A stretch of 36,081 nucleotides of DNA, taken from IMG/VR virus record IMGVR_UViG_3300043446_000316, positions 1 to 36,081 of that record; one strand, written 5' to 3'. The translations under genes and the position numbers were made by a program. Shown here one piece after another: positions 3,958-29,060 of this stretch (position 1 is the stretch's first letter; each line of letters starts with the position of its first letter). The notes under the pieces are model-generated. The model ran no database searches. It was not told the DNA's origin and worked only from the letters and a program-made list of their open reading frames with translations. Source of the DNA: a virus.

Positions 3958-4692
3958 ATGGGCGGTGGTGGCGGTTCTCAAACAAGCACTACTACGACAC
4001 AGATTGATCCAGCAATCAAACCCTATGTAACGTATGGTCTTGAGGAAGGTAAACGACTTTACGAGTCAACTACGCCTTCATATTTCCCCGGTCAGACGTA
4101 TGTAACTCCTTCTGAGGCTACTCAACAAGCCTTGAGAATGGCAGAACAGCGGGCTTTAAGTGGCTCTCCACTGACAGAAGCTGCTAAAGAAGAGACTTTA
4201 GCTACGATTCAAGGTCGTGGCGTTAATCCATTTTTAGCTGGTGCTTTAGAAGGTGTAAATAGGCAAGCTAGTCAGGATTATACTAAAGCTATTCAGGAAT
4301 TAAGGTCTAGAAGTGCGTCTGCTGGTCGTTATGGCTCATCGGCTATGGGTCAACAAGAAGGTCAAGCTCAAGATATTTTTGCTAGGAATTTGGCAGAAGC
4401 TGGTAATCGAATGGCATTCCAAGCTGCTGAAGCTGAACGTGCTCGTCAGATGGCTGCTGTTGGTGCTGCGCCTCAAATGGCACAAGCAGATTACGCAGAT
4501 ATTCAGCGTCTATTGACTGTTGGCGGTGCTAGAGAGCAACAGCAAGCGGCAGAACTTCAGGACGCTATCAATCGATACAACTTTGAGCAGAACTTGCCAC
4601 AGATGAAACTTAGCCAGTTTGCTAACTTGTTTAGCTCTGTGCCTCAAGGTTCTCAGGTAACGCAGACTGCTACTCCACAGGGAGGCAAATAA
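3958..4692 (+). CDS. putative internal virion / DNA-ejection protein
   Basis: A 244-residue protein starting with a glycine run (MGGGGGSQTSTTTTQIDP). I chose the ATG two bases after the previous stop because a GAGGTG ribosome site lies just upstream; a GTG four codons earlier is possible. The body is long alpha-helical and Gln/Ala-rich (AGRYGSSAMGQQEGQAQDIF, EAERARQMAAVGAAPQMAQ). This is the composition of the small ejection proteins that leave podovirus capsids ahead of the DNA. It is the first of four consecutive genes of that character. No catalytic motif is seen. Confidence 0.65.
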   Translation: MGGGGGSQTSTTTTQIDPAIKPYVTYGLEEGKRLYESTTPSYFPGQTYVTPSEATQQALRMAEQRALSGSPLTEAAKEETLATIQGRGVNPFLAGALEGVNRQASQDYTKAIQELRSRSASAGRYGSSAMGQQEGQAQDIFARNLAEAGNRMAFQAAEAERARQMAAVGAAPQMAQADYADIQRLLTVGGAREQQQAAELQDAINRYNFEQNLPQMKLSQFANLFSSVPQGSQVTQTATPQGGK

Positions 4693-5201
4693 TGGGTGAG
4701 CCAGTAACTACAGGGATGATGATTGGCGCTGCTACTGGAGCACTGACTAATCGTCGTAATCCGCTTCAAGGGGCAATGCTAGGTGGTGCTATGGGTGCTG
4801 CTGGCGGCTCTTTCTATGGTGGTGCTATGGGTGCTGGCGCTGCTGCTCCCGGTGCTGGTGCAAATGCTTTTATTCCCGGTGTTCAGGGCGGCGCGGGTGC
4901 TCTTGGTGGTCAAACAACTGCATTAACTGCTGCATCTCCTACGTTTGGTCAGGCTATGTCAGGTGGGTTTGGCGCGTTGAAATCAGATATTAGTGGTCTA
5001 AATACTTTTATGAACCAAAACCCGACGACTTCGCAAATTGGTTTTGGGCTTGCTAAACAAGCATTTGCTCCTGAAGAACCTATGCAGATGGCTCCTCCGG
5101 GCCAAGTAAGTCGTTCACAGATTCAACCTATGGACTATGCAAGTCTATTGAATCCACAGCAGCAGACAGTTATTCGTCCTGCAACTCCTTCGCTTATATA
5201 G
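4692..5201 (+). CDS. Gly/Ala-rich putative internal virion protein
   Basis: A 169-residue protein whose start overlaps the upstream stop (TAATG). Residues 8-75 are almost entirely Gly, Ala and Met (MLGGAMGAAGGSFYGGAMG), similar to glycine-zipper membrane-inserting segments. The rest is Gln/Pro/Ser-rich (QMAPPGQVSRSQIQP). Glycine-zipper segments occur in phage ejection proteins and other pore formers, so a role in making the DNA channel through the envelope is plausible. This is inferred from composition and from its neighbours. Confidence 0.6.
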   Translation: MGEPVTTGMMIGAATGALTNRRNPLQGAMLGGAMGAAGGSFYGGAMGAGAAAPGAGANAFIPGVQGGAGALGGQTTALTAASPTFGQAMSGGFGALKSDISGLNTFMNQNPTTSQIGFGLAKQAFAPEEPMQMAPPGQVSRSQIQPMDYASLLNPQQQTVIRPATPSLI

Positions 5202-6743: not shown

Positions 6744-8774
6744 ATGGCAGATTTTGATTATGCAGGTGCTTTGTTTTCTGGAAAGCCTCAAGGTGCTCCA
6801 CCAGAGCAGCAGGTAGATTATGCCTCTCAGTTGTTCTCTGGAGTCCGTCCTAGTATTGGTACTGCTCCCGGCCTAGAAAAGCCTCCTGTGGCTATTTCTG
6901 AGCCTTCTATGGGTGCTTCTGTCGGTACTGCCTTCATGGGTGGAATTCCTACAGACAAGCAAGCAGCAATTAACTATTTTGCAAAACAGCGTGGTATTTC
7001 TCCTAATCGATATACGATTATTGATGGCGATATTGCTTATCAGGCTGATGATGGAAAGTTTTATAAAGAGGTATCTGGTTTAGGTGCTACGGCAGCTTAT
7101 TACGCTCCTGATGTGCTTGAGATGGCTCCTGATATAGCTGCTGGTACGGCATTGGCTCCATTGTCTTTGTTGGGTGCTCCGGGAGTTGCTACTGCTGCTG
7201 CTGGAACTGGTGCTGTTGCTGCTGGAACTAATTACTTGCGTCAAAAGATTGCAGAAAGAACGGCTGGTCAGCAAATTAGTCCGGGTCAAGTGGCTTTATC
7301 TGGCGTATTGTCTGCTGGTGCTGAATTGGCTCCTGCTGTGCGTCAGGGATTTGCAGAACGGAGATTGGCAAGGGATATTGCTCAGGCAAACCCACAGATG
7401 ATTCAGTCATTGCGTCAAAAGGCTGGTCAAGTTGGAGTCCAGCTTACTCCAGCAGAGCTAACTAACCTTTCGTCATTGATGGGTCAGCAGAAGGTTTTAG
7501 GAAATATTCCTGAATCCTCTGTTCAGATGCAAAAGTTCTATAAACAAAGAGAAGCTCAGGTGCAAAGTGCAGTAGATGATTATTTAAGTAATCTATCTAA
7601 AGTAGAAGATCAATATGTTGCTGGTAATCGAGGTATGCAAGCTCTTGAGGTTCAGAGAGAGAATTTAGTTAGAGCTAGAAGTGATGCTGCTGCTCCTATT
7701 TATAGAGCCGCTTTTGAAGAATCTGTACCAGTAAATACTCAGCCAGTATTAGATCAAATTGACAATATGATGAGAACTCAGCCTCCTACTGGTACGGCTG
7801 CTCGTTACTTGCGGAGAGTTAGAGACTTACTGCAACGTCCTGAGATTGATGCTGAAGGCAATGTATTAAATACATTTAGAGCAGAAGATCGACTTCCTAA
7901 CTTGCAAAATGCTAAGTTTGAAATTGATTCAATGTTTAAAGATGAGGCATTTGGTGCTTTAGATAAAACTATTCAAGGACAACTTACAAGCATTCAAGAG
8001 AATTTATTGAGGCAGATGGGTGAGAATAATCCTGCTTATACTGCTGCTAATAGACAGTTTGAAAGACTATCACAGCCTTTAAATGAGTTTGATGAGCGTA
8101 TTACTGGTTCATCATTAATCAAAATGGCTCCAGATAATCTTAAAAACTTTGCCAATAGGATATTCCAAAACCCTAGTCCGGGAACAATCAACTACGTTAA
8201 GAAGCAGATTATTGCTGGTGGTGGTGAGGAAGCTTGGAATGCAGTTACTAGGGCATTTCTTGAGGAGCAATGGACGCTTGCTAAGAAGCCAGCTAAGTCG
8301 CAGCAAGGTGCTAAATTAGACACTGGCAATACTTGGCAAAACATCATCATTGGTGATCCTAAGCAGATGAAGGCTATGCAAGCAGCATTGCCTCCTGAAA
8401 GTTTTAAGGCATTGCGCGATTTGGCTGACGTTTTAGAGGCTGCTGGACGAGTTAAAAAGCTAGGCTCTGATACTGCGTTTAATCAACTTGTGACTGAGGA
8501 ATTGCTTAAAAATCCTCCTATTACTAGCATTACAACTGGTGTTGCTCGTGCTGTTGGTGGGATTAAGCTAGATCAACCAGCAAAGGCGCTTTCTGATTGG
8601 GCGATTAAACGAGATGCTTCTGCTAATGCCACAAACATTGCTAACATAATAACTAGCCCAGATGGTATTAACAGGTTGAAAGAATTGAAGCGTATGTCTC
8701 CAACATCGGCAAAGCGTTGGGCTGCTACTGCTCAATTGCTTGCTGACTATGGGATTTCAGAGTTAAGGGAATAA
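6744..8774 (+). CDS. large putative internal virion protein with hydrophobic segment
   Basis: A 676-residue protein, last and largest of the ejection-protein series, preceded by GGAAAG. It begins with two copies of a short Ala/Phe-Ser-Gly element (DYAGALFSGKPQG and DYASQLFSGVRPS). Residues about 110-165 are strongly hydrophobic and small-residue rich (APDIAAGTALAPLSLLGAPG, VATAAAGTGAVAAGTNYL), compatible with insertion into a membrane during DNA entry. The remaining 500 residues are helical and charged. The LRQKIAERTAGQQISPGQVA region resembles other phage ejection proteins. I see no glycosidase or protease signature. Confidence 0.6.
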   Translation: MADFDYAGALFSGKPQGAPPEQQVDYASQLFSGVRPSIGTAPGLEKPPVAISEPSMGASVGTAFMGGIPTDKQAAINYFAKQRGISPNRYTIIDGDIAYQADDGKFYKEVSGLGATAAYYAPDVLEMAPDIAAGTALAPLSLLGAPGVATAAAGTGAVAAGTNYLRQKIAERTAGQQISPGQVALSGVLSAGAELAPAVRQGFAERRLARDIAQANPQMIQSLRQKAGQVGVQLTPAELTNLSSLMGQQKVLGNIPESSVQMQKFYKQREAQVQSAVDDYLSNLSKVEDQYVAGNRGMQALEVQRENLVRARSDAAAPIYRAAFEESVPVNTQPVLDQIDNMMRTQPPTGTAARYLRRVRDLLQRPEIDAEGNVLNTFRAEDRLPNLQNAKFEIDSMFKDEAFGALDKTIQGQLTSIQENLLRQMGENNPAYTAANRQFERLSQPLNEFDERITGSSLIKMAPDNLKNFANRIFQNPSPGTINYVKKQIIAGGGEEAWNAVTRAFLEEQWTLAKKPAKSQQGAKLDTGNTWQNIIIGDPKQMKAMQAALPPESFKALRDLADVLEAAGRVKKLGSDTAFNQLVTEELLKNPPITSITTGVARAVGGIKLDQPAKALSDWAIKRDASANATNIANIITSPDGINRLKELKRMSPTSAKRWAATAQLLADYGISELRE

Positions 8775-16404: not shown

Positions 16405-16414
16405 TTTTTTCAAA

Positions 16415-16483
16415 GGCTAGGGAGTGCAACCCGAAAAGTCGATTCGTTACCGACCTGCCTTGATTCTTCTTGTAACGATAGCC
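16415..16483 (+). ncRNA. structured leader upstream of replication gene
   Basis: The 96 bases ahead of the replication gene contain nested pairings. GGCTA (16415-16419) pairs with TAGCC (16479-16483), directly stacked on TCGTTAC (16444-16450) with GTAACGA (16472-16478); GGG/CCC (16420-16422, 16430-16432) forms a small side hairpin. Together they describe a three-way junction ending 17 bases before the ATG. It could be a cis-regulatory RNA, an origin-related element or a protein-binding operator. Confidence 0.45.
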
Positions 16484-17609: not shown

Positions 17610-18600
17610 AATGAGGGCACAAGAGCTTGATGAAGTTATCAGGCAGCAAAAGATTGCTTCAAAGAATATTGATGTGGATAAGTACCTACATTTCCATGAT
17701 GTAACTACTCAGGTCAAGGATGCGACTGATTGGTTAGCTGAGATGGAAGAAAGTTATATCAATCCAACTATCGACAGTAATGTGACGATGCCTTGGACTA
17801 CGACTCATGGAGACTTCAAGTTTCGGATGGGTGAGGTAACGGTTTATGGTGGGACTAACGGTTCAGGAAAGTCTCTTATCACAGGTCAGATTGCTTTGAA
17901 TTTAGTGCGTCAAGGCAAGAAAGTATGTATCGCGTCTTTTGAGATGCAGCCGAAATTGACGTTATGGCGAATGATTCGTCAGTTCAGCGGTGAGTTTATT
18001 GATGATCCACTGGCATCGGATAGGGGTGGATATATCAGTCCGTTGATGGCTAGGTTTGCTAGGTTTATCAAAGGCAAGTTATTTATTTACGATCAGCAAG
18101 GAACTACTACGCCAAATAAGACGATAGCGATGGCGAGATATTGCGCTATGGAAAAAGGAATAACGCATATCTTTATCGATTCGCTGATGAAGTGCGTAGA
18201 GAAAGAGGATGACTATAACGAACAGAAGCGGTTTGTAGATGAGATGTGCTCATTGGCTAGGGATCATGATGTTCATATTCACTTGATTCACCATATCAGG
18301 AAGCAAGAGACTGATGAGAAGCAGCCTAACAAGAATGACTTGAAGGGTTCAGGATCGATAGCGGATCAGGTGGATAACGTGTTCTTGGTTTGGAGAAACA
18401 AAAAGAAAGAGAATATGTTGAAGCAAGGTGAAGTTGGATTAGATGATATTGCAGATACGTATTTAATGTGTGAGAAGCAGAGAAATGGGGATGCTACAGA
18501 GTGGTACAAGTTATGGTTTCACTCAAGCAGCCAGCAATTTGTTGAGAAATTAGGAGGCTATCCAATTGACTTCGATAATGGTGGAAGGTTCGCTCAATGA
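17593..18600 (+). CDS. DnaB/Twinkle-type RecA-fold replicative helicase
   Basis: A 335-residue ATPase. It has Walker A GGTNGSGKS (residues 86-94), SFEMQPKLTLWRMIRQFSG as the conserved SF4 region after strand two, Walker B HIFIDSLMK (192-200), the HLIHHIRK motif (about 230-237) and GSGSIADQVD (252-261), which senses nucleotide and DNA in hexameric helicases. It lacks the DnaB N-terminal domain and is a core motor, so primase zinc finger and initiator may supply the missing contacts. The last four bases overlap the start of the next frame. Confidence 0.85.
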   Translation: MTNLLEMRAQELDEVIRQQKIASKNIDVDKYLHFHDVTTQVKDATDWLAEMEESYINPTIDSNVTMPWTTTHGDFKFRMGEVTVYGGTNGSGKSLITGQIALNLVRQGKKVCIASFEMQPKLTLWRMIRQFSGEFIDDPLASDRGGYISPLMARFARFIKGKLFIYDQQGTTTPNKTIAMARYCAMEKGITHIFIDSLMKCVEKEDDYNEQKRFVDEMCSLARDHDVHIHLIHHIRKQETDEKQPNKNDLKGSGSIADQVDNVFLVWRNKKKENMLKQGEVGLDDIADTYLMCEKQRNGDATEWYKLWFHSSSQQFVEKLGGYPIDFDNGGRFAQ

Positions 18601-19429
18601 GTTGGCTCTTTTCGCGGGCGCTGGTGGAGGCATACTTGGGGGGAAACTTCTCGGATGGAGAACAGTCTGCGCCGTTGAATGGGAGCCATACGCAGCTTGT
18701 GTACTTGCCGCAAGACAAAATGACAAAGTTCTCCCGCCTTTCCCGATATGGGATGACGTTCAAACCTTTGACGGAAAGCCGTGGAGAGGAATTGTTGACG
18801 TTATATCTGGAGGATTTCCGTGCCAAGACATTAGCGCAGCAGGAAAAGGAGCAGGAATTGAAGGAGAACGAAGCGGAATGTGGCGAGAAATGGCGAGGAT
18901 CATTCGCGAAGTGGAGCCAAGATTCGTATTCGTGGAAAACTCACCAATGCTTACTTCTAGGGGACTTGGAGTCGTTCTCGGAGACTTGGCCTCGATGGGG
19001 TTTAATGCGGCGTGGGGAGTGTTGGGAGCAGCAGACGTTGGAGCAAACCATCAGAGGGACAGAATCTGGATTGTCGCAAGAAATATGGCCTACTCCAAGA
19101 AGTTGCAGTGCAATGGCAGCAACAATAACGCAAGAATCAGCATGGAACGAAAAAAGGAATCCGAATTTGGAGACAATAGTTGGAAGAACAATATATCCGA
19201 CTCCAACAGCCCACAATTCAAAGGAAGGAGCATTCCCAGCGGAATATACCAGGAAAACTCCTACGCTTGCGACTCACGCTGGTGGGAAATTGAACCCAAC
19301 GTGGGTAGAGTGGCTGATGGGGTGGCCGCTAGGGTGGACAGACTTAAAGCCATTGGAAACGGACAAGTACCACTTTATGCAGCAGAAGCATGGAAAATCT
19401 TGAGCAATACCGTCATCAATGCGAGGTGA
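18566..19429 (+). CDS. C5-cytosine DNA methyltransferase
   Basis: A 287-residue enzyme with motif I LALFAGAGGG (residues 13-22), IV GGFPCQDISAAG with catalytic Cys86, VI ENSP (124-127), VIII QRDRIWIVA, and the final RVDRLKAIGNGQVP (256-269). It methylates cytosine at C5 from S-adenosylmethionine. The TTG at 18566 has GGAGG eight bases upstream; ATG at 18578 is an alternative start. Between motif VIII and IX the target-recognition region is unusually short and low in complexity (Asn/Ser/Lys-rich), and this stretch is where the other frame also codes. It may protect phage DNA from restriction. It is almost fully overlapped by the next feature. Confidence 0.8.
   Translation: MTSIMVEGSLNELALFAGAGGGILGGKLLGWRTVCAVEWEPYAACVLAARQNDKVLPPFPIWDDVQTFDGKPWRGIVDVISGGFPCQDISAAGKGAGIEGERSGMWREMARIIREVEPRFVFVENSPMLTSRGLGVVLGDLASMGFNAAWGVLGAADVGANHQRDRIWIVARNMAYSKKLQCNGSNNNARISMERKKESEFGDNSWKNNISDSNSPQFKGRSIPSGIYQENSYACDSRWWEIEPNVGRVADGVAARVDRLKAIGNGQVPLYAAEAWKILSNTVINAR
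18597..19403 (+). CDS. second long frame overprinted on the methyltransferase gene
   Basis: An 807-base frame in the other reading phase, inside the methyltransferase gene. It starts in ATGA shared with the helicase stop and has GGAAGG nine bases upstream. The 268-residue product begins MSWLFSRALVEAYLG and has a WPRWGLMRRGE segment, WPTP elements (EIWPTPRS) and a distinctive end (VEWLMGWPLGWTDLKPLETD). I recall similar MSWLFSRALV proteins and VEWLMGWPLGWTDL ends from other phages, beside or over such methylase genes. That recollection supports coding but I could not check it. Function unknown; the bias toward Trp/Pro/Glu is unlike a random frame. Confidence 0.65.
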   Translation: MSWLFSRALVEAYLGGNFSDGEQSAPLNGSHTQLVYLPQDKMTKFSRLSRYGMTFKPLTESRGEELLTLYLEDFRAKTLAQQEKEQELKENEAECGEKWRGSFAKWSQDSYSWKTHQCLLLGDLESFSETWPRWGLMRRGECWEQQTLEQTIRGTESGLSQEIWPTPRSCSAMAATITQESAWNEKRNPNLETIVGRTIYPTPTAHNSKEGAFPAEYTRKTPTLATHAGGKLNPTWVEWLMGWPLGWTDLKPLETDKYHFMQQKHGKS

Positions 19430-20186: not shown

Positions 20187-20327
20187 ATGTTCAAAGTTAC
20201 CTTTTACGTTTATAGCAAAATCCTTAACAAGGAGTTTCGTAATGTTGAAGTCCATAAGTCAATGGATGATGCAAGGCTTAGGGCTTTGGCTCTAATGTGG
20301 CAGATTGAGTCTGTCGAAGAAGTTTAA
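20187..20327 (+). CDS. small phage protein, unknown function
   Basis: A 46-residue protein, MFKVTFYVYSKILNKEFRN then VEVHKSMDDARLRALALMW. I chose this start because GGAGG lies five bases ahead; an upstream ATG at 20145 would add 14 residues without a ribosome site. It has a beta-strand pair followed by an alpha helix. No family is recognised. Confidence 0.6.
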   Translation: MFKVTFYVYSKILNKEFRNVEVHKSMDDARLRALALMWQIESVEEV

Positions 20328-20334
20328 TAAATAT

Positions 20335-20350
20335 GCCGGGGAAACCCGGC
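20335..20350 (+). promoter_or_regulatory. GNRA-tetraloop hairpin before a small gene
   Basis: GCCGGG-GAAA-CCCGGC is a perfect six-base-pair stem with a GAAA loop, two bases before ACTAGGAGATTAATATG. There is no T run, so it is not a terminator. The 17-base ribosome-site block is identical to that of the first leftward gene, which also has a hairpin in front. It may stabilise the message or regulate translation. Confidence 0.55.
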
Positions 20351-20366
20351 TTACTAGGAGATTAAT

Positions 20367-20552
20367 ATGGAAGATCGCACGATAAGGCTAGATTCTTTTG
20401 AGGATAGCACTGAGATTGATGTAGCTCGGTTTGACGAACAGACAATATGGTTAAGCATTGGTCGTAGGCTGGCATCGATACGAGCATTATTAACAAAAGA
20501 GCAAGCAGAAGAATTAATTAAAAATCTTCAGGATGTAGTTGATACTCTGTGA
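20367..20552 (+). CDS. small acidic protein, unknown function
   Basis: A 61-residue acidic protein with a strong AGGAGA ribosome site. It has a strand-rich N-terminal half (MEDRTIRLDSFEDSTEIDVA) and an amphipathic C-terminal helix (LLTKEQAEELIKNLQDVVD). It is the last gene before the gene-free structured region. No domain is recognised. Confidence 0.65.
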   Translation: MEDRTIRLDSFEDSTEIDVARFDEQTIWLSIGRRLASIRALLTKEQAEELIKNLQDVVDTL

Positions 20553-20594
20553 TATAGTTTAGGTGTCTATGTGCGGGCATGGATACGAAATTGA

Positions 20595-20677
20595 AGCCCT
20601 TAAAGCTTTGGTTTTCCTTCCTTAAATGGAGAACGTGCCCGACACGCGTGGAAAGCCAAGACTTTAGGGGCTTTTTT
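20595..20677 (+). terminator. long imperfect hairpin ending in T6 (terminator or structured RNA)
   Basis: Two 23-base arms (20595-20617 and 20650-20672) form an almost continuous stem with a few T-G wobbles and one mismatch near the middle, followed by a T run (20672-20677). The apical part TGCCCG (20636-20641) can also pair with CGGGCA (20574-20579) upstream, a possible pseudoknot. The stem is longer than needed for termination, so it may be a regulated terminator or an RNA domain. Confidence 0.65.
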
Positions 20678-20679
20678 GC

Positions 20680-20930
20680 GTTTAGACCGTACTGGTCGCG
20701 TTAGAAATGAACCCATGTTCGGGGTTGCTGCCAAGAGAACCGAGTGCGCTTTAAGAGGCCAGCGCGAGAACTTGCTACAGGTATCTCAGGAACAGAGCAA
20801 ATAGGTGATGGTACGGTTAGTCCACGATACGGGCGCTCTGGAAATTGAATGTAGACCTTCTGGGTGCAGCAGTCCTAAAGGATGGCTGAAAGATGGGAAT
20901 ATCACCTTCTTGGCCTCTCTTATTGTCTAA
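20680..20930 (+). ncRNA. gene-free region with dense RNA secondary structure
   Basis: About 250 bases without a plausible gene, but rich in complementary segments. GACC/GGTC at 20686 and AACCC/GGGTT at 20710 form local hairpins. GCGCT/AGCGC (20746, 20761) has a loop containing AGAGGCC, which can pair with GGCCTCT near 20912. TTGCT/AGCAA brackets 20772-20799, GGTGAT pairs with ATCACC (20813, 20900), and CAGCAGTCC with GGATGGCTG (20868, 20881). No tRNA, tmRNA, RNase P or group I core is recognised. I infer a structured phage RNA of unknown class. Confidence 0.5.
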
Positions 20931-20936
20931 AGGAAT

Positions 20937-21278
20937 ATGATTGCAAATATGAAACAAATAGATCCAAGTCAAGCAATCGAATACATGATTAAGAATGCCA
21001 AGGCTTACGCAGAGGCTAAGGCTAATGTTGCATATTTAGAACAATATAGAAAATCAAAGAAAGCTATGTTGTTTGCGTCAGCTATAGGAAATACCGTAAC
21101 TGACAGGGAAAACAAGGCGTATAGTCACCCAGAGTACATAGAGCTATTGGAAGGGCTTAGGGAGGCTGTAGAGAGGGCTGAAGAATTAAGATGGATGTTG
21201 GTAGCAGCACAAGCTAGGATTGATGTCTGGAGGTCACAGGAAGCCTCTAATCGAGCAATAGACCGTAACACTAACTAG
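20937..21278 (+). CDS. helical phage protein, unknown function
   Basis: A 113-residue, almost entirely helical protein (AEAKANVAYLEQYRKSKKAM, then EYIELLEGLREAVERAEELR, then VAAQARIDVWRSQEASNRA), with AGGA ahead of its ATG. A second Met at residue 5 is possible. The central pattern of Ala, charged residues and HPEY is familiar to me from phage early/middle regions, where no function is known. It starts right after the structured RNA. Confidence 0.75.
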   Translation: MIANMKQIDPSQAIEYMIKNAKAYAEAKANVAYLEQYRKSKKAMLFASAIGNTVTDRENKAYSHPEYIELLEGLREAVERAEELRWMLVAAQARIDVWRSQEASNRAIDRNTN

Positions 21279-26960: not shown

Positions 26961-29060
26961 ATGCTCGATTCAGGCACAATCAAGGGAATCCTTGAAAATG
27001 AAATAGATAACTCGCTTGGTTACATTGATTCTGAGACTGTTGAGGATCGTAAACGAGCTTTAGAGTATTACCTGAGGCAACCCTACGGCAACGAGGTCGA
27101 GGGGCGTAGCCAGATTGTCACTGGCGAGGTTGCAGAGGCTATCGATGGTGCGCTTCCTCAACTTATCCGAGTCTTTACGACTACAGAGGATATTGTCTAC
27201 TTTGAGCCTAAGAGTCCCGGCGATGAGGAATCTGCTAAACAGGCTACAGACTATTGCAATTGGGTGTTCTACCGTGAGAATGACGGACTCCTGATACTTC
27301 ATAACTGGTTCAAAGATGCGCTGCTTCAGAAGGTAGGTATCGTTAAGTCTTATTGGGATGAGCGTGTAGACGTTATTAAAGAAGAATACGAGAACCTGTC
27401 TGAAGATGAGCTTGCTCTATTGCTGGCAGATCAATCCCTAGAGGTTATCAAGCAGGAAGTAGAGTACGAAGAAGTAACCGATATGCTTGGGAATGTCATG
27501 CAGATTCCTAAGTACGAGGTCTATGTCCAGCGTAAGAAAGAATACGGCTGCGTCAAGATCGAGAACGTCCCGCCTGAAGAATTCCTAATCTCTAAGGCTG
27601 CTAAAGACATTGAGACTGCTCAATTCGTAGCTCATCGTCGTCTGATGCCGCGTAGTGACTTGATAGCGTTAGGCTATGACAAGGAGATGGTTGATAGTCT
27701 GCCAACCTACAATGATCTGGAGTTCTCTGAGGAACGAGTAGCTCGATTCCAGAATGGCGAGCAGCCTGACCAGAATATCAGTCTGGATCAGTCAATGCAG
27801 ACGGTTGAGGTATACGAGTGCTATATCCGTATCGATGAGGATGAGGATGGCATTGCAGAACTGAGAAAGATTGTTTATTGCGGCTCAGAAATCCTTGACG
27901 ATGAAGAATGCGACTATATTCCGTTCCACAGTATTTGCCCCATTCCTATCCCTCATAAGTTCTTTGGTCAGTCATTGGCTGATCGTGTGGTGGATATTCA
28001 GCTAGAGAAATCGACGATTACTCGTCAGTCTCTAGACAATATGTATCTGACGAATAACGCTCGTGTAGGTGCTGTAGATGGTCAGGTGAATCTGGATGAC
28101 CTGTTGAACGCTACGCCGGGTGGGATTATCCGTCTGAAGTCTCCGAATGCTTTGGTTCCGCTAACGGTACAGAGCACGTTCGGTCAGGCGCTCCCAATGA
28201 TGGAGTATTTAGATCAGGTTCAAGCCAAGCGTACTGGTGTGAATGACGCGCAACAAGGTCTTGACCCAGATGTGTTGTCTAACGTTACGGCTGCTGCTGT
28301 AGCTGCGATGATGAAGTCTAACTCTGGCAAGCTGGAGTTGATTGCTCGTGTGTTCGCAGAGACAGGCGTTAAGAGCTTGTTTAAGGGCATTCTGAGGCTT
28401 CTAGGCAAGTATCAGGACAAGCCTAAGCTAATCCGTATGCGTGGTCAGTACGTCCAATATGACCCTCGTACATGGGCTAATGAGTACGATATTTCGGTCA
28501 ATGTTGGTCTGGGTTCTGGGGATCGTGAACAGAAGCTGACGATGCTTCAGATGATTCTGTCTAAGCAAGAGCAGATTATCCAGCAATACGGTGCGGCTAA
28601 TCCATTGGTTAGCGTGATGCAATACCGTAACACATTGGCTAAGTTCATTGAGGCTGCTGGATTCAAGGATGCCTCGGAGTTCATGAATGAGATTACGCCA
28701 GAGGTTAATGCACAACTTTCTCAGCCTCAGCCTCCTGCTCCCGATGCACAAGCAGAGGTCGCACAGATGTTGGCACAAGTTGAACGGGAAAAGACTCAGG
28801 CAAAAGCCCAGATTGACGCGGCGAAACTTGATCTGGAGAGACAAACCCTCGAAGCGGAATATACCCGTAAGGGCATAGAGATGCAGATGAAGAACCAGAA
28901 GGATTCTGCTGAGCTTCGGATTAAAGAGGCAGAACTAGCGGTTAAACAACTTCAGGCTGTATTGGCTATGGACTTGGCTGATGAGGATACCAAGAACAAG
29001 CAAGCTGAACTGACTCTGAAGGCGCTTAGAGAACTTGGCGCATTAACAAGGGGCGCATGA
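26961..29060 (+). CDS. portal protein, P22-like
   Basis: A 699-residue protein following the large terminase. Its long length, the region ENVPPEEFLISKAAKDIETA with HRRLMPRSDLIALGY, then TNNARVGAVDGQVNLDDLL and TPGGIIRLKSPNALVPL are characteristic of P22-type portal proteins. The C-terminal third is a long charged helix (EVAQMLAQVEREKTQAKAQI onward), corresponding to the barrel or crown helices. Portal dodecamers form the DNA entry and exit channel. The stop overlaps the next gene by four bases. Confidence 0.9.
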   Translation: MLDSGTIKGILENEIDNSLGYIDSETVEDRKRALEYYLRQPYGNEVEGRSQIVTGEVAEAIDGALPQLIRVFTTTEDIVYFEPKSPGDEESAKQATDYCNWVFYRENDGLLILHNWFKDALLQKVGIVKSYWDERVDVIKEEYENLSEDELALLLADQSLEVIKQEVEYEEVTDMLGNVMQIPKYEVYVQRKKEYGCVKIENVPPEEFLISKAAKDIETAQFVAHRRLMPRSDLIALGYDKEMVDSLPTYNDLEFSEERVARFQNGEQPDQNISLDQSMQTVEVYECYIRIDEDEDGIAELRKIVYCGSEILDDEECDYIPFHSICPIPIPHKFFGQSLADRVVDIQLEKSTITRQSLDNMYLTNNARVGAVDGQVNLDDLLNATPGGIIRLKSPNALVPLTVQSTFGQALPMMEYLDQVQAKRTGVNDAQQGLDPDVLSNVTAAAVAAMMKSNSGKLELIARVFAETGVKSLFKGILRLLGKYQDKPKLIRMRGQYVQYDPRTWANEYDISVNVGLGSGDREQKLTMLQMILSKQEQIIQQYGAANPLVSVMQYRNTLAKFIEAAGFKDASEFMNEITPEVNAQLSQPQPPAPDAQAEVAQMLAQVEREKTQAKAQIDAAKLDLERQTLEAEYTRKGIEMQMKNQKDSAELRIKEAELAVKQLQAVLAMDLADEDTKNKQAELTLKALRELGALTRGA

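Follow-up and report, generated by a model that had tools for sequence, protein, structure and literature searches.

The window, by which we mean the whole stretch of DNA analysed here, is a virus record of 36,081 bases in which genes for an SU10-type portal, a DnaB-like helicase, an Erf-like protein and a spanin are present, and the phage carrying positions 20553-20936 is podovirus-like. These positions form a gene-free gap, extending from the stop codon at 20552 of an ORF of 61 aa (20367-20552) to the ATG at 20937 of the following one (20937-21278; ORF 20937 from here on), whose product has no match in Pfam or in PHROGs. Upstream of the gap, 19764-20081 matches PHROGs of endonuclease and Holliday junction resolvase, and 18597-19403 a PHROG of DNA methyltransferase. 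An int-alpA RNA is recognized at 16410-16477 (37.9 bits, against an Rfam gathering score of 35.8), near the place where genes switch from leftward to rightward.

A sequence-only reading of this DNA had described the gap as densely structured RNA without a credible gene. With the flanking two set aside, the ORFs of at least 20 aa which overlap the gap measure only 20-51 aa. The same reading had named a conserved reading frame as the finding that would speak against it; in the + frames of the homologues of the downstream module (B, see below) none is kept, a stop-free frame being found in 1 of 30 sequences, and of 262 alignment gaps, with each row counted separately, 254 have a length not divisible by three. 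The observation of structured RNA in the gap is confirmed, and it takes the form of two RNA modules on the + strand. The 384 nt fold at z -3.23, a signal that stems from module A (z -6.35), module B by itself being at z 0.04.

Module A (20565-20677, + strand) consists of a 5' hairpin followed by a terminator that bears a second hairpin in its tip. Hairpin 1 (20565-20583) carries the loop TGCGGG (20572-20577). The terminator (20593-20677), whose paired region in the energy fold is 20593-20674, has a stem of 22 pairs and ends in T6 (20672-20677), and corresponds to the long hairpin with T6 that had been noticed before. Hairpin 2 is formed by CGTG (20634-20637) and CGCG (20645-20648) around the loop CCCGACA (20638-20644), a loop that in the window was read by eye. 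The paired stem and the T-run behind it are those of an intrinsic terminator; a simple terminator scan, restricted to loops of 3-8, did not return it.

Homologues of module A were collected with nhmmer, and the 100 sequences obtained were reduced to 59 distinct copies by orientation and motif (GTC or ATC at the start, CTTTGG, and a T-run at the end), a filter that could also lose true variants; reverse-strand matches occur in the collection because A is nearly palindromic. What these copies have in common is the 5' hairpin, a linker, the 22-pair terminator stem with its T-run, and two small hairpins in the stem tip. In an alignment of 47 hand-picked copies out of the 59, the terminator has 98.2% of cells paired and two-sided change in 12 of 27 pairs; none of 500 shuffles came as high.

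The possible pseudoknot between the T6 hairpin and an upstream segment, which the earlier reading had suggested, turns out to be a pairing between the loops of hairpins 1 and 2, and it is supported in relatives. With a parser allowing loops of 5-7 nt, 57 of 59 distinct copies show perfect complementarity between the two loops, and with a wider parser 55 of 59 do so, compared with a mean of 4.0 and a maximum of 11 in 2000 loop shuffles; the agreement in loop length is partly built into these figures, since both parsers break ties toward equal lengths, and because the copies are related the counts are not independent events. There are 20 distinct sequences among the perfectly paired loops 1, and when each distinct loop pair is counted once, 20 of 23 are perfect (shuffled mean 1.0, maximum 6). 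Independently of any parser, 56 of 59 copies contain, within their first 20 nt, a run of 8 nt or more that is complementary without a break to a stretch on the 3' side. The exceptions to perfect loop pairing are locus L181 and the copy in the window. In the latter the parsers took loop 2 as CCCGA; under the by-eye reading, TGCGGG and CCCGACA can pair with one bulged A.

The loops also differ between close copies. Copies that share at least 90% identity outside the loops form 84 pairs; loop 1 differs in 61 of them, and in 56 of these 61 both members are perfectly complementary. Where loop lengths are equal (66 pairs), divergence averages 0.25 in loop 1, compared with 0.06 in the sequence outside the loops. 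One record (G032, locus L246), the only one of 45 to have two places of module A, carries different loops at them, TGACGG and TGCCAG (27360-27466 and 28039-28143, the second directly before an ORF). Loop pairs between molecules act in plasmid copy control, and one may ask if the loops of A would likewise pair between molecules, giving dimers or rings or joining the A RNAs of two phages. The difference of loops between close copies, with complementarity kept, and the two loop types of the single record argue for this. However, pairing in cis accounts for this covariation too, and loops that are held only to pair, in an RNA whose remainder is held in sequence, would look fast without any selection for difference; the loop differences may reflect freedom rather than selection, and we consider pairing between molecules unlikely. 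An extension of it seems to us more improbable still, namely that A would be an RNA identity switch, in which the loop pair defines a type and an A RNA of the same type, coming from a resident or co-infecting phage, pairs with the nascent A of another and alters readthrough into whatever RNA or gene follows. If true, phages could by this means exclude or spare each other according to loop type.

Upstream of module A, on the + strand, an extended -10-like box, TGATATAGT (20550-20558), overlaps the stop codon of the 61-aa ORF and lies 6 nt before the module. In a fixed slot of four positions before hairpin 1, TATAAT is matched at 5 or 6 positions in 31 of the 58 copies with full upstream sequence, the window included (base shuffles: mean 2.7, maximum 9 in 500), and in 44 of 59 copies the best -10 hexamer stops 6 or 7 nt short of hairpin 1. 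Some relatives have TTGACT or TTGACA 17-19 nt further up. In the window no -35 was seen by eye upstream of A, a consensus promoter scan of 20300-21000 found none, and no room for a promoter was seen between A and B. Taken as they stand, these comparisons support module A as a conserved unit of putative promoter, hairpin and terminator, with the -10-like box at a fixed distance.

Directly downstream of A, module B (20680-20931, + strand) is a pseudoknotted RNA of about 250 nt, of which 46 distinct full-length copies were gathered, window included. The model of B, R2, matches the window at 264 bits, a score obtained on one of its own training sequences. Covariation was assessed on 30 of the 31 rows below 97% identity, the one excluded, L024, lacking its 5' end. 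In these 30 sequences a structure of nine helices with a pseudoknot has 94.1% of cells paired compared with 81.4% in shuffles, two-sided compensatory change in 29 of 48 pairs compared with 18.7, and a covariation score of 0.420 compared with 0.180, with 0 of 500 shuffles as high; the controls lean toward the structure, since it was drawn from covariation in an alignment of the same copies. Slid versions of the structure reach at most 44.9% of cells paired. A measure of further pair types is not above shuffles (445 of 500 as high).

The individual helices of B, all on the + strand, differ in what they contribute. The pairing of AGAGGCC with GGCCTCT, put forward in the earlier reading, is strongly supported as a long-range helix of 8 pairs, AGAGGCCA (20754-20761) with TGGCCTCT (20911-20918), in which 7 pairs show two-sided change and 100% of cells are paired. 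The same full pairing is found in CTACA/TGTAG (20775-20779/20850-20854; two-sided change in 5 of 5 pairs), CAGAGC/GCTCTG (20793-20798/20835-20840; 4 of 6) and GTCC/GGGC (20820-20823/20831-20834; 3 of 4). The 5' domain, within 20693-20733, contains TGGT/GCCA (4 pairs, 100% of cells paired, two-sided change in 1) and a hairpin AACCC/GGGTT (5 pairs, 98.6% of cells paired, two-sided change in 3). The other long-range pairing proposed earlier, GGTGAT (20804-20809) with ATCACC (20901-20906), which makes the pseudoknot, stands in part: its inner 4 pairs are formed in 30 of 30 sequences and two-sided change is seen in 2 of the 6 pairs, both among the inner ones, but the outer 2 pairs are broken in 10 and 14 of the 30. 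A candidate closing helix, UUUAGAC/GUCUAAA, is unsupported (74% of cells, two-sided change in 1 of 7 pairs).

Alone, B folds no better than shuffles. Folding energy was therefore rejected as evidence for this module, and the evidence is the covariation. Two-sided compensatory change in related phages, whose lack the earlier reading had named as counting against it, is found in both A and B, and comparison of the copies supports module B as a putative separate conserved RNA with a pseudoknot.

G-U cells outnumber A-C cells in both modules, with 137 and 8 respectively in A, 68 and 36 in B, and 56 and 9 in B once the unsupported closing helix is left aside, which fits an RNA of the + strand. This excess bears on another explanation, according to which the stretch would act as single-stranded DNA, as an origin, a packaging site or a recombination site. 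The neighbouring genes, which seem to handle DNA (the endonuclease/Holliday junction resolvase and methyltransferase PHROGs), speak for it, but the prevalence of G-U on the + strand, the -10-like box at its fixed distance and the existence of relatives of similar length without the stretch speak against it, and we hold it to be extremely improbable.

The relatives come from a protein search with ORF 20937, from which the best 80 of 245 confirmed loci were taken, and from pattern scans of viral contigs, which gave further loci. A blastn search with 20367-20960 finds pieces in 29 of the 80 loci, in some of them the flanking ORFs alone; in one (L062) the 61-aa ORF runs directly into the downstream ORF and the sequence of the gap is absent. 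A blastn query of 20400-21100 had no hit among 50,697 phage records or 72,556 plasmid records, and 20553-20936 had none among 20,395 E. coli records. Six matches to the B pattern in genome contigs were taken as chance, since a profile search with B (to E 10) recovered only one of the six, L253, at 12 bits and E 0.077. The model of A matches 29 and that of B 25 of 45 virus records, shares that are not prevalences, as the records were hand-picked, many of them for holding A or B; because A is nearly palindromic, each of its places gave a match on the opposite strand as well. Seven records of 35.6-38.8 kb which have the ORF family, possibly fragments (L019, L036, L038, L059, L070, L075 and L081), contain neither A nor B, and small other ORFs occupy the place of the cassette. 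From its distribution, the A-B cassette looks optional. A reading of A as a late promoter, comparable to lambda pR', was dropped in view of these relatives of similar length without A.

What stands behind module A is variable. Among the 59 distinct copies, 37 are followed directly by B, 5 by some other element and after it B or a B-like start, and 3 by no more than a B-like start; 5 have an ORF directly behind them, 8 have other sequence, and 1 lies at a contig end. Conversely, B is found without A directly before it in one locus (L102), whose contig has A further upstream with a gene between (L024). B without adjacent A, and A with other followers, indicate that the modules are separate. At four loci (L087, L134, L243, L262) another RNA-like stretch lies between A and B or the B-like start. 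Matches to R2 at 44-51 bits (L182, L134, L120) and 23-28 bits (L265, L119, L181) are called B-like at the start only, since in L182 and L134 it is mostly the first 60 positions that align, with much of the model skipped.

In two loci, L268 and L138, the place of B directly behind A is taken by another structured RNA, the Betaproteobacteria-1 RNA (RF02932; 97.2 and 93.7 bits, gathering score 49.4), from which B differs in that it matches neither this nor any other Rfam family. No match to RF02932 occurs in 369 genomes of the genome class of L250, where the control was likewise without any match, so that this negative carries no weight. The stretches behind A, folded once or twice each and some of them (C, D, E, H) named by eye, range widely in energy: z -3.5 (L243) and -5.1 (L134) for C, -2.8 for D (L034, about 4661-4875), -2.9 for E (L087, about 8355-8545, - strand), -1.1 for F (L268), -0.1 (L265) and -1.3 (L181) for G, -0.6 for H (L258), -0.2 for the stretch in L119 and -1.0 for the B-like one in L120. 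D, E, H, G and the stretch of L119 appear RNA-like and different from B.

Two of these stretches have counterparts in named phages. That of L134 between A and the B-like start has a 30-base match (96.7%, E 1e-3) in Alcaligenes phage CASP1, within an 883-base gap (L281, OR960973.1, 1846-2728) which has no annotated gene and precedes tRNA-Met and tRNA-Arg. By eye this gap seems to contain several helix-closed RNAs, and a segment of about 104 bases has 78% similarity to positions 46706-46810 of Iodobacter phage PhiPLPE. The RNA behind A in L268 has a 95-base match (73.7%, E 2e-4) in Acidovorax phage AP1, between annotated genes. The likeness of these two phages is to other units found behind A, and no cultured phage was found to carry A or B themselves. 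The hosts of CASP1 and AP1, which are Burkholderiales, do no more than hint at that host group.

Where protein genes come next, they bear on the possibility that A would be a conditional terminator or attenuator, in which loop pairing, or a bound protein or small molecule, sets the choice between stopping at T6 and readthrough into B and the genes that follow, with B as part of a leader. The order of -10-like box, hairpin, terminator and downstream unit is that of such a device; in the window 5 bases separate the end of B from the ATG of ORF 20937; and five distinct copies of A have an ORF whose start is no more than 6 nt from the end of the module. In one of them (L058), an ORF of 175 aa (4474-5001), the one tested among the ORFs directly behind A, scores 33.5 bits with HNH_3, whose cut-off is 24.8, and falls slightly short of the cut-off with NUMOD4; it stands directly after the T-run, with no B, and its ribosome site would thus sit in the 3' arm of the terminator. 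However, the gene behind B differs: in the window and some other phages it belongs to the ORF 20937 family, L028 has an N6/N4 DNA methylase there, and the ORF of L012 bears a weak resemblance to DUF5843 (24.0 bits, cut-off 25). Promoter-like sequence was also seen by eye after B in several copies. Attenuation is a possibility we regard as doubtful. Nor is there a conserved downstream gene, as for a cis leader or riboswitch: different ORFs stand behind B in the copies compared by eye.

Known RNA families offer likenesses and no identity. In the Infernal/Rfam scan that the earlier reading had recommended, neither A nor B reaches a gathering score of Rfam 15 in the window or in 17 loci, the only match in the window being int-alpA; in 20300-21100, three matches appear up to E 10, all far below gathering scores. 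In line with the earlier reading of the gap, no tRNA or tmRNA was found, ARAGORN giving 0 genes in the window and Rfam none. HEARO has no match at gathering in the window or the 17 loci, and an IscB-type neighbour with HNH and RuvC is not seen, ORF 20937 being without domain match and the HNH gene of L058 without B.

GOLLD, ROOL and similar RNAs are structured, large bacterial and phage noncoding RNAs of unknown function, some of them phage-borne. They are far larger than A and B. The likeness is that of structured RNAs found in some phages, the difference one of size and of the lack of an Rfam match for A and B. Large structured RNAs of this kind are dealt with in PMC12286853. Module A includes a terminator and is like HK022 put in having two hairpins near a promoter-like box. 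This put, an antitermination RNA in a phage leader, is not itself a terminator, unlike A. The pRNA of phi29, a small phage RNA, also has two complementary loops that differ between phages, both on one three-way junction and pairing between molecules. A shares with it the complementary loop pair varying between phages, but A ends in a terminator and was not found in the seven relatives of similar length; Rfam gives no match to phi29 pRNA in the window, and the presence throughout the phage group expected of a packaging RNA is not observed, those seven relatives being possibly incomplete. The c4/P4 CI immunity RNAs and the kissing RNAs of ColE1 type have complementary segments or loops differing between groups. 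In A, both partners lie within one transcript, and the window has no Rfam match to c4. Both c4 and c4-a1b1 are tabulated in PMC2864571. Among the papers listed in searches of open-licence PMC literature, none was recognized as describing A or B, which does not establish their absence from print.

Altogether, we consider it reasonably probable that the gap holds an accessory cassette of two RNAs, in which A would be a self-standing terminator RNA with kissing loops and B a trans-acting RNA reached by readthrough. Transcription would start at hairpin 1, and the resulting RNA of about 110 nt would be compact, hairpins 1 and 2 pairing within one molecule and lying alongside the terminator stem. 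A fraction of the polymerases would read through the terminator of A into B, or into the sequence that replaces B in other phages; it is possible that B comes instead from processing of a longer transcript. B would then act in trans by binding some partner, protein or RNA, and would serve infection as an accessory factor instead of being the leader of a single gene, given that the next gene differs and often, as judged by eye, seems to have its own promoter. This trans role we infer by elimination.

The earlier proposal of one or two new phage noncoding RNAs, or of a regulated terminator plus an RNA, is borne out in that there are two modules, with covariation in both and no Rfam family for either. 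A and B are new RNA families in a new arrangement, and demonstrate no new principle. The gain consists of two families of structured RNA that Rfam does not list, backed by strong comparative evidence and arranged in a way common to many related phages, as well as a putative module of promoter, kissing loops and terminator with exchangeable sequence behind it, sometimes an Rfam family; and the occurrence of RF02932 behind A places an orphan RNA family in a phage context. The cassette thus constitutes a compact system for asking what roles noncoding RNAs have in phages and why their loop pairs are so variable.
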